From positions 2,942,501-3,006,500 of the forward strand of contig NZ_CAMTTE010000001.1 of the NCBI RefSeq assembly GCF_947077775.1: 64,000 bases of DNA. The letters run 5' to 3'. The position numbers were made by a program, and so were the translations under genes. The notes under the pieces are model-generated. The model saw only the letters and a program-made list of their open reading frames with translations, did not search any database and had not been told where the DNA came from. This document shows, piece after piece, positions 3,472-5,969 of the stretch (position 1 is its first letter; every line of letters begins with the position of its first letter). The DNA comes from Salinibacter pepae. Its GTDB lineage: Bacteria; Bacteroidota; Rhodothermia; Rhodothermales; Salinibacteraceae.

Positions 3472-4419
3472 CTAGTCGGTAAAGAGCGTGGAGACCGACC
3501 GGTCGGTGTAAATGTGGCGGATGGCCTTGGCGAACAGGTTTGACACGCTTACCACCTCGATGCAGTCGGACGGGCGCTTGAGGGGCACCGTGTCGGTGAT
3601 CATGAGTCGCTCAAGGGGGGAGTCCTCGATGCGGTCGTAGGCCGGGCCGGAGAGGAGGCCGTGCGTGCAGGCCGCCATGATTTTCAGGGCGCCGTGGTCC
3701 TTGAGCGCCTTCGCGGCGCGGGTCAGGGTGCCGGCCGTATCGACGATGTCGTCGATGATGAGGACGTCCTTGCCCTCCACGTCCCCGATCACGTTCATCA
3801 CCCGTGCTTCGTTTTGACGGGGGCGGCGCTTGTCGATGAGGGCCAGGTCCACGCCCAGGCGCTGGGCGTAAGCGCGGGCCATCTTGAGGCCGCCCACGTC
3901 CGGGGCCAGCACGACGAAGTCGTCGAGGTCGAACTGGCGAACGTGGTCGGTCAGCACGGTGGAGCCGTACAGGTGGTCCACCGGGACGTCGAAAAAGCCC
4001 TGGATCTGGGCGGCGTGAAGCTCCATGGTCAGGATGCGATCCACGCCGGCGGAGGTGAGCATGTTGGCCATGAGCTTCGCCGCGATGGAGACGCGCGGCT
4101 GGTCCTTGCGCTCCTGTCGGGCGTAGCCAAAGTAGGGGATTACGGCCGTGACGCGTTCGGCCGAGGCCCGCTTGGCGGCGTCGATCAGGAGGAGCAGCTC
4201 CATCCAGTTGTCCGCCTTCGGATGGGTGCTCTGAATGATAAACAGATCCGCTCCCCGAATGGACTCCTCGAACCGCACGTAGATCTCGCCGTCCGCAAAG
4301 TCGCGGATGCTGAGGTCCCCGAGGGTCGTGCCGTAGGCTTCGGCAATCTTGTTGGCGAGGGCCGGGTTGGAGCGGCCCCCGAAGATGGCGACGCGGTGTT
4401 CATTGCTCGACGCACGCAT
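3472..4419 (-). CDS. prs: Ribose-phosphate pyrophosphokinase (PRPP synthetase)
   Basis: Makes PRPP from ribose-5-phosphate and ATP for nucleotide, His and Trp synthesis. The 315-residue product has the class I length. Visible motifs are the catalytic stretch YARQERKDQPRVSIAAKL, MELHAAQIQGFFDVPVDHLYG-like residues at about 125-145, and the PRPP loop VLIIDDIVDTAGT. The start giving MRASSNEHRVAIFGG is preferred over an ATG five codons upstream. It lies just downstream of tRNA-Gln on the same strand and upstream of rplY, giving a tRNA-prs-rplY-pth order. Confidence 0.96.
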   Translation of the reverse strand: MRASSNEHRVAIFGGRSNPALANKIAEAYGTTLGDLSIRDFADGEIYVRFEESIRGADLFIIQSTHPKADNWMELLLLIDAAKRASAERVTAVIPYFGYARQERKDQPRVSIAAKLMANMLTSAGVDRILTMELHAAQIQGFFDVPVDHLYGSTVLTDHVRQFDLDDFVVLAPDVGGLKMARAYAQRLGVDLALIDKRRPRQNEARVMNVIGDVEGKDVLIIDDIVDTAGTLTRAAKALKDHGALKIMAACTHGLLSGPAYDRIEDSPLERLMITDTVPLKRPSDCIEVVSVSNLFAKAIRHIYTDRSVSTLFTD

Positions 4420-4465
4420 GAGTGGACGGGGCACCGGGGCGGCAGCGGTCAGGGGGATAGAGAGC

Positions 4466-4539
4466 TGGTTGCCCGGGGTGGATTCGAACCACCACTAACG
4501 GCTCCAAAGGCCGCTGTCCTGCCATTAGACCACCGGGCA
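4466..4539 (-). tRNA. tRNA-Gln (anticodon TTG)
   Basis: The minus strand folds into a full cloverleaf. The acceptor TGCCCGG pairs with CCGGGCA, followed by discriminator A and an encoded CCA. The anticodon stem GCGGC/GCCGT encloses loop CTTTGGA (anticodon TTG), and the T arm is GGTGG-TTCGAAT-CCACC. It lies about 45 bases upstream of the prs start on the same strand. Confidence 0.95.
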
Positions 4540-4685: not shown

Positions 4686-5969
4686 TCAGGTCCAGGCGCG
4701 GAGTTCGGTGAGCTCCTCCGTTACGGTGTCGATCGCGTCGGTCGTCAGCCTGCCCCGATCGGTAAGCAGGCCCCCGGTGACGAGGGCGGCGGGAGTGGTG
4801 TCAAACCGAGGGGCCCATACCTCCACGTCCCGAGAGCCGTCGTACACGGCCCGGTCCGCGGCGGACTCGCCGGACGCACCGTCGTCCACTGCGATCTTGT
4901 CGACGGCGCACGCGGCGTACACCGGCACATCGGCCCGACGCGCCGCGAGGGCGGCCCCGTACGTTCCGGCCTTATTGACCACCGCCCCCGAAGGCTGCAC
5001 CGTGTCCGCCCCCACGAGCACGGCGTCGACGCTGCCCCCCTGCAGGCGACGCGCGACGGCGGCGTCGGGGAGGAGCGTCACGTCGAGGCCCGCTTCGGTG
5101 AGGCGCTCGGCGACGGCCACGCCCTCGTCTCCGGGCGCCGAGACGGCCACGCTGACAGTGGGCGACGGGTCGGCCGCCTGCAGGGCCGACAACACGGTGC
5201 CGGAGCGGGACAGGGTGAGCACGTGGGTCCCGCTTGTTTGCGCGGCCGCGGTCTCGGCCGCCGCCGCGTCGGCCGCCAGGGCGTTCTGGATGGCCTCGTG
5301 GGCGTTGGTTTCGACGGCATCAGGAAGGAGCTCCGGACCGCTCGCGTGCATGGCGTGGTGCAGCCGGTTCACCAGCGCCGCCATCGACGGGCGGGCCTCC
5401 AGCAGGCGATGCGCGGTGCCGATTAGGCGCCCCCGGGCATCCTCAATTGTGGCGGCCTCGGAATGGGCGAGCATGCCGGCCCGGTCGCGGAGGACCTCCA
5501 GGGCCCGAATGGAGAGGTCGGCCGACCCGTGCGTCGTGTCGTTTGCGAGGCCGAGGATGGACGGCGCCACGCGGCGGTACGAGGTCCACAGGTCCGGCAC
5601 CGTGTCGCGCCGCAACAGTACGGTGGGGGAGGCCCACTCGACCTCCTCGGTCTCCCAGTTCGTCTGGATCGACCGGCTGTCGACGTCGAAGAGGAACGGG
5701 TGCACCCGCCAGTGCGCCCCGTGGTCGTCGTCCTCGACCGTGAACGCCGAGCCCTGCCGCCGGGGATGCACGTCGGCACCACGCAGGCCGGTCTCCTCCT
5801 CCACCTCCCGCAGTGCGGACGCCGTGGGATCGCCGTCCTCGACGTGCCCGGCAACGGCGCCCCACCGACCGGGGTACGAGCCTACCTCTTCGCTGCGGCG
5901 AAGCAGCAACACTTCGCCTCGGTGTCGGAGAAACACGGTGACGACGGGCGTCGGGTCGGCGTCGGGCAT
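4686..5969 (-). CDS. NUDIX hydrolase fused to an eIF2B-alpha/R15P-isomerase-like domain
   Basis: A two-domain protein of 427 residues. Residues about 5-135 are a NUDIX domain: GHVEDGDPTASALREVEEET resembles the NUDIX box, but its spacer is one residue shorter than GX5EX7REUXEEXGU and the first Glu is Asp. Residues about 150-427 match the eIF2B alpha/beta/delta and ribose-1,5-bisphosphate isomerase fold, with LVGADTVQPSGAVVNKAGTY near the end. Where the isomerases I remember carry a catalytic Cys, this protein reads TLSRSGTV, as in eIF2B-type members, so isomerase activity is doubtful. The start giving MPDADPTP is used; an upstream ATG adds 19 unlikely residues. I recall this fusion mainly from haloarchaea. 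Substrate unknown. Confidence 0.8.
   Translation of the reverse strand: MPDADPTPVVTVFLRHRGEVLLLRRSEEVGSYPGRWGAVAGHVEDGDPTASALREVEEETGLRGADVHPRRQGSAFTVEDDDHGAHWRVHPFLFDVDSRSIQTNWETEEVEWASPTVLLRRDTVPDLWTSYRRVAPSILGLANDTTHGSADLSIRALEVLRDRAGMLAHSEAATIEDARGRLIGTAHRLLEARPSMAALVNRLHHAMHASGPELLPDAVETNAHEAIQNALAADAAAAETAAAQTSGTHVLTLSRSGTVLSALQAADPSPTVSVAVSAPGDEGVAVAERLTEAGLDVTLLPDAAVARRLQGGSVDAVLVGADTVQPSGAVVNKAGTYGAALAARRADVPVYAACAVDKIAVDDGASGESAADRAVYDGSRDVEVWAPRFDTTPAALVTGGLLTDRGRLTTDAIDTVTEELTELRAWT

Follow-up and report, generated by a model that had tools for sequence, protein, structure and literature searches.

The locus and its fusion gene

The window, by which we mean the whole stretch of 64,000 nucleotides of Salinibacter pepae DNA that was analysed, carries on its minus strand a gene that joins a NUDIX domain to an eIF2B-like (IF-2B) domain (Table 1). 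The reading frame runs from an ATG at 5969 to a stop at 4686 and is open throughout, and both domains pass their Pfam cut-offs (21.1 bits for PF00293, 22.4 bits for PF01008). A previous reading made from the sequence only (the sequence-only reading) had described one frame joining a NUDIX domain to an eIF2B-alpha-like domain, and translation and Pfam confirm it. The whole fusion is predicted by AlphaFold as a single confident two-domain model (pLDDT 95.9, pTM 0.93). The structural matches of the C-terminal domain in Foldseek are R15P isomerases and archaeal eIF2B-like proteins, including 1vb5 (TM 0.74-0.80 by target length). The fusion is not a product of chance since, of the 13 genomes searched in the genus (its own included), 10 carry it, with 60-100% identity; two of the three genomes that do not have it are incomplete. 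The architecture was already known from annotation, and the Salinibacter gene adds a member.

Table 1. Features of the fusion gene and its neighbours, in window positions
Feature	Position	Strand	Basis
NUDIX + eIF2B-like (IF-2B) fusion gene, 427 aa (P0001)	4686..5969	-	translation, Pfam, conservation, AlphaFold
NUDIX domain, residues 8-131	5577..5948	-	PF00293, 63.8 bits
NUDIX box, residues 41-62 (GHVEDGDPTASALREVEEETGL); Glu55, Glu58, Glu59 present	5784..5849	-	sequence, family comparison
IF-2B (eIF2B-like) domain, residues 146-409	4743..5534	-	PF01008, 144.9 bits; Foldseek
His147-Gly148, at R15Pi Arg22-Gly23	5526..5531	-	alignment to R15Pi; Arg22 is a 1-phosphate binder (PMC5789824)
Ser254-Arg-Ser256; Ser254 at catalytic Cys of R15Pi/MtnA, Ser256 at 5-phosphate-binding Ser	5202..5210	-	alignment
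Glu282, at 1-phosphate-binding Gln of Cys-type isomerases	5124..5126	-	alignment
Gly320-Ala-Asp322 (GAD motif); Asp322 is catalytic/sugar-binding Asp202 of Tk-R15Pi	5004..5012	-	alignment
tRNA-Gln(TTG), between fusion and prs	4466..4539	-	ARAGORN, Rfam; order kept in most genus genomes
prs, ribose-phosphate pyrophosphokinase	3472..4434	-	Pfam, synteny

The adjacency of the fusion and prs is kept within the genus only. It is therefore weak evidence for a PRPP link, ordinary synteny being enough to account for it, and a functional link to prs was dropped on this ground. At positions 67-1794 of the window, a gene whose sequence resembles that of a membrane pyrophosphatase is convergent to pth and lies beside the rplY-prs block, an order that is also kept in most genus genomes. 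Around the haloarchaeal copies the recurrent neighbours are EngB-like GTPase, metallophosphoesterase, F420-related and hydantoinase-like genes (named from their sequences), from which no pathway is apparent.

The catalytic REUxEExGU helix of the NUDIX domain is intact, as REVEEETGL. The complete box reads G41-HVEDGDPTASAL-REVEEETGL, with 12 residues between G and R instead of the canonical 13, so that the sequence-only reading was right in calling the spacer one residue shorter. The exact GX5EX7 spacing is missed (the G-to-R offset is 13, the canonical one 14), and an Asp occupies the Glu position. Since loop length varies across the fusion family (offsets of 12 to 22), the short spacer is ordinary. 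Judging from its residues, the Salinibacter NUDIX domain is most likely active as a hydrolase. ADP-ribose diphosphatases carry a motif Pro about 16 residues past the NUDIX box. This downstream Pro (described in PMC5389931) is absent from the fusion, where residue 78 is Val, nearly invariant in the family. The same NUDIX subfamily is also seen behind a MazG-like N-terminal region in other archaea (L085 1120-1890, L086, L088 and L090), which suggests that this region is a second fusion partner of the subfamily. As a clue to the substrate, the MazG-NUDIX fusion was dropped, its MazG score being 16.7 bits against a cut-off of 22.

The pocket of the C-terminal domain

Crystal structures of PH0208 from P. 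horikoshii give the roles of the ligand-binding residues in R15P isomerase (PMC5789824), and these can be carried over to the fusions by alignment. In the Cys133 region, where R15P isomerases have Cys-His/Asn-Ser, the fusion has Ser254-Arg-Ser256; the GAD motif is kept. Both features had been picked out by the sequence-only reading. In PH0208 numbers, the catalytic Cys is replaced by Ser and Gln166 by Glu in 46 of 46 fusions, and Arg22 by His in 41 of 46. The last two positions, Glu282 and His147 respectively in the Salinibacter protein, correspond to ligands of the 1-phosphate, whose other ligands, Arg65 (as Arg or Lys) and Lys215, are kept. The 5-phosphate residues Ser256 and Lys358 and the sugar residues Asp322, Asn332 and Lys333 are present in all 46 fusions (roles from PMC5789824). 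The AMP site of R15P isomerase is not conserved in the fusions. All 56 fusions of a larger set retain eight pocket positions, Ser254, Glu282 and Asp322 among them, one of the eight, position 193, being either Arg or Lys; Ser256 is invariant in this set.

The identities at two of these positions are linked. The residue at Glu282 is Gln in all 25 Cys-type isomerases of the set. Among the 99 sequences compared, Cys-type proteins always have Gln, and the fusions together with 43 stand-alone proteins have Ser with Glu; neither a Ser/Gln nor a Cys/Glu combination occurs among them. Two linked residues thus set the eIF2B-like proteins of the Ser/Glu group apart from the Cys/Gln isomerases, and offer an easy check by which erroneous annotation as R15P or methylthioribose-1-phosphate isomerase can be avoided.

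On the missing catalytic Cys, the curated family score and the tree, we reject the reading of the fusion as an R15P isomerase. The protein scores 85.8 bits with TIGR00511, the R15P isomerase equivalog of NCBIfam, the cut-off of which is 314.1 bits. In a tree with stand-alone relatives (SH-aLRT support only), its C-domain lies outside the branch that holds MtnA and R15P isomerase. For TIGR00512 (MtnA, NCBIfam) the score is 66.1 bits against 279, and a Ser stands at the Cys position. In PH0208, the Cys135Ser substitution yields an inactive protein that retains R15P binding (PMC5789824). The label 'R15P-isomerase-like', given by the sequence-only reading, suits the fold and the sugar and 5-phosphate residues; as to function it is misleading, given the changes at the catalytic Cys and at two ligands of the 1-phosphate.

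Stand-alone Ser/Glu-type IF-2B proteins are present in Gammaproteobacteria (L034, L037, L041, L043 and others), with no NUDIX gene of the subfamily in the fetched flanks (up to 6 kb). In Oceanospirillum linum the adjoining gene is, judging from its sequence, KDPG-aldolase-like. In Thermoproteota (L129, L131, L136, L141, L143), IF-2B paralogues occur as tandem pairs, one member being of the Cys/Gln type and the other having altered catalytic residues; the two possibly form hetero-oligomers. On a Chloroflexi contig (L045, 1-1276), a GAF-like region precedes the IF-2B frame, possibly as the result of a chimeric assembly. Another contig of the same genome carries a NUDIX fragment at its end (L064).

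Distribution, gene exchange and decay of the NUDIX site

Outside the genus, the fusion is found in one other genus of the same family and in another family, where two genera have it; an even sampling of the window's class shows it in only 3 of 71 genera. Of 325 genomes sampled from what we infer to be the phylum Halobacteriota, 40 have it, and we take these carriers to be haloarchaea, judging from the 16S-like probe with which the search centre genome was picked, from acidic neighbour proteins and from the annotation of Haloferax volcanii HVO_1934 (D4GTG3) as a NUDIX family hydrolase/eIF-2B domain protein (PMC8576121). These loci share architecture and length, and the aligned proteins are 41-53% identical to that of Salinibacter. 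The counts and the Haloferax annotation agree with the sequence-only reading that the fusion is mostly haloarchaeal. It also occurs in 2 of 398 genomes of the phylum of the Thaumarchaeota genome and in one Poribacteria genome. Two genomes of the Thermoproteota sample have the NUDIX and IF-2B genes of the family unfused and at separate places (L206 and L208 in G371, L207 and L209 in G355); their NUDIX genes group with the fused N-domains in the NUDIX tree.

When plasmids were searched with the fusion protein, the named matches listed were MtnA and no record covered most of the query. The viral contigs searched yielded no match to the fusion, PADLOC returned no match, and a relatives search of one archaeal genome at E<=1e-70 found none. 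The window's own genome was searched for a second IF-2B gene and for RuBisCO (with positive controls); neither was found, which fits the proposal of the sequence-only reading that the protein acts without RuBisCO-linked salvage.

In the full-length tree, the rhodothermial and haloarchaeal fusions join with 100/100 support against those of Thaumarchaeota and Poribacteria, a split that the NUDIX-domain tree reproduces. The C-domain tree unites all 13 rhodothermial sequences in a clade (99/95) nested within the haloarchaeal ones. In the full-length and NUDIX trees the rhodothermial sequences fall into two groups, with a single clade left unrejected (AU p 0.487). Gene exchange between haloarchaea and Rhodothermia is thus well supported by the trees, and this part of the proposal stands. 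Its direction, from haloarchaea to Rhodothermia, is favoured mainly by the distribution and by the outgroup relatives of both domains, most of which are archaeal. It is unproven because a single haloarchaeal clade is not rejected by the AU test (p 0.465 and 0.337). The same AU result would suit a fusion that arose in Rhodothermia and then moved to haloarchaea. This course of events is nevertheless quite improbable, given that the fusion is widespread in haloarchaea but present in only 3 of 71 genera of the class, that the outgroups are mostly archaeal and that the best trees put the rhodothermial sequences inside the haloarchaeal ones. An ancestor of the halophilic Rhodothermia most likely acquired a haloarchaeal-type NUDIX-eIF2B-like protein from haloarchaea. 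Whatever its direction, the exchange adds a case to those between haloarchaea and halophilic bacteria.

The catalytic glutamates of the NUDIX domain are lost in 10 of the 40 haloarchaeal copies and in one rhodothermial copy (L011). Parsimony on the C-domain tree gives six changes among haloarchaea and seven when L011 is included; the strongly supported branches alone force at least three losses. Mean N-domain identity drops from 0.60 to 0.33 in the decayed copies, against a C-domain value that remains near 0.51. The pocket of the C-domain is intact in 56 of 56 fusions, NUDIX-decayed ones included. When an intact N-domain was used to search the ten haloarchaeal genomes with NUDIX-decayed fusions, no further NUDIX of the subfamily turned up. 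For a decayed N-domain, the predicted fold is still that of a NUDIX domain, in a model whose underlying alignment included intact relatives. Two NUDIX-decayed haloarchaeal fusions, L201 and L202, are near-identical to each other and lie within very long upstream open frames; their start sites are uncertain because the long frames are probably a G+C effect.

Repeated decay of the NUDIX site beside an unaltered C-domain pocket lends no support to the view of the sequence-only reading if cleavage by the NUDIX domain is taken to be necessarily coupled to the C-domain. That reading would have been refuted by a dispensable C-domain, and evolution presents the opposite pattern, in which the C-domain is kept and NUDIX catalysis is lost. 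This suggests that the sugar-phosphate-binding half, and not the NUDIX half, is protected by evolution. In Salinibacter and most other members, the NUDIX domain is still selected, because it is intact there. As far as we have found, repeated NUDIX decay beside an intact C-domain pocket is new here, and this family-level pattern is of more interest than the Salinibacter gene. In the literature, of which coverage was partial, we found no paper on the fusion in Salinibacter and no mention of the Ser/Glu signature or of repeated NUDIX decay.

Proposed function and known relatives

It appears that the protein may consist of a binding core for a pentose-5-phosphate-type ligand and an optional, auxiliary NUDIX hydrolase, rather than being an R15P isomerase or a translation factor; we regard the chances for and against this model as about equal. 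The conserved core would be the C-terminal domain, which keeps the R15P-isomerase fold along with the sugar and 5-phosphate residues. Because the Cys is a Ser, two 1-phosphate ligands are replaced and the sugar and 5-phosphate residues are kept, this domain most likely binds a pentose 5-phosphate-type ligand without a 1-phosphate and does not isomerise R15P. Candidates are ribose 5-phosphate or a 5'-phosphorylated ribosyl compound. However, a ligand with a 1-phosphate is also conceivable, since the remaining residues that bind the 1-phosphate, Arg193 and Lys333, are retained. The Salinibacter NUDIX domain probably hydrolyses a nucleoside-diphosphate-linked compound, and the protein may serve a regulatory or a processing role. 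Hydrolysis would be auxiliary, several lineages having discarded it.

No activity is known to us for any protein of the Ser/Glu type. It has to be considered, as a rather unlikely alternative, that the Ser/Glu-type C-domain is itself an enzyme, in which Ser254, Glu282 and Asp322 catalyse a different reaction on a substrate of the ribose-5-phosphate type; the role of the NUDIX domain would then be only to supply or clear a substrate. The eight pocket positions kept in every fusion and the Ser/Glu pair shared by the stand-alone relatives would be needless for a mere scaffold, and the strict pairing of Cys with Gln and of Ser with Glu points the same way. However, a binding site would be conserved just as strictly, and human eIF2B alpha, which binds sugar phosphates (work cited in PMC8576121), offers a precedent for binding. 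The sequence-only reading had proposed that cleavage of a nucleotide, such as ADP-ribose or an NDP-sugar, is coupled to recognition of the sugar phosphate released. A two-step enzyme of this kind, with PRPP as a further possible substrate of the NUDIX domain and with uptake or isomerisation of the product by the C-domain, is unlikely in view of the repeated loss of NUDIX catalysis with an untouched C-domain, the missing isomerase Cys, the end of the prs adjacency at the genus and the nearly invariant Val in place of the Pro of ADP-ribose diphosphatases. In its favour are the catalytic glutamates of Salinibacter and most copies, the two genomes of the Thermoproteota sample that have both domains as separate genes, and prs next door within the genus. 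Moreover, a Nudix hydrolase has been proposed to make R15P from PRPP in Thaumarchaeota (PMC7300363), and a Nudix PRPP pyrophosphatase activity that yields R15P is published (Fisher et al. 2002, as cited in PMC5389931).

Bacteria, in which the fusion also occurs, do not have eIF2. This argues against the fusion being a translation initiation factor (an aIF2B-like regulatory subunit), as it was once annotated in haloarchaea, despite a fold similar to eIF2B alpha/beta/delta in Foldseek. Strains deleted for HVO_1934, alone or with HVO_2706, reportedly show no growth difference from the wild type, and those who made the deletions doubt a role in translation (PMC3828320). The protein also makes very few interactions with initiation factors (PMC8576121). 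The likelihood of a translation factor is therefore minute, and we take it as largely ruled out on these published deletion and interaction data.

Extending the model of a pentose-5-phosphate-binding core to the whole group, we tentatively suggest that the Ser/Glu-type eIF2B-like domain could represent an unrecognised class of enzymes or sensors for a ribose-5-phosphate-type metabolite, common to haloarchaea, halophilic Rhodothermia, Gammaproteobacteria and other archaea. The fused NUDIX domain would then be a detachable accessory that repeatedly loses catalysis. A widespread haloarchaeal protein, treated until now as a possible translation factor subunit, thereby gains a testable reading, that of a protected sugar-phosphate pocket next to a repeatedly lost NUDIX site.

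We know of no measured activity for HVO_1934 or the Salinibacter fusion. The two share the same domains, which for HVO_1934 are taken from its annotation, and differ in their hosts, one haloarchaeal and the other bacterial. With R15P isomerases (Tk-R15Pi, 3vm6; PH0208, 5yfs) the fusion has in common the fold (TM 0.78-0.79 by target length), the Asp/Asn/Lys sugar residues and the Ser/Lys 5-phosphate residues. Unlike them, it has Ser for Cys, Glu for the 1-phosphate Gln and His for Arg22, does not conserve the AMP site and falls outside the isomerase clade. The stand-alone Ser/Glu-type IF-2B proteins (Oceanospirillum L034; Thermococcus L049-L060) share the Ser254/Glu282 signature and the pocket residues, but not the NUDIX domain. 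For the decayed N-domain, the comparison is with NrtR, which is among its Foldseek matches and whose NUDIX domain (3gz8, with ADP-ribose) binds without hydrolysing. In NrtR, the partner of the NUDIX domain is a DNA-binding domain, whereas in the fusion it is an eIF2B-like domain.
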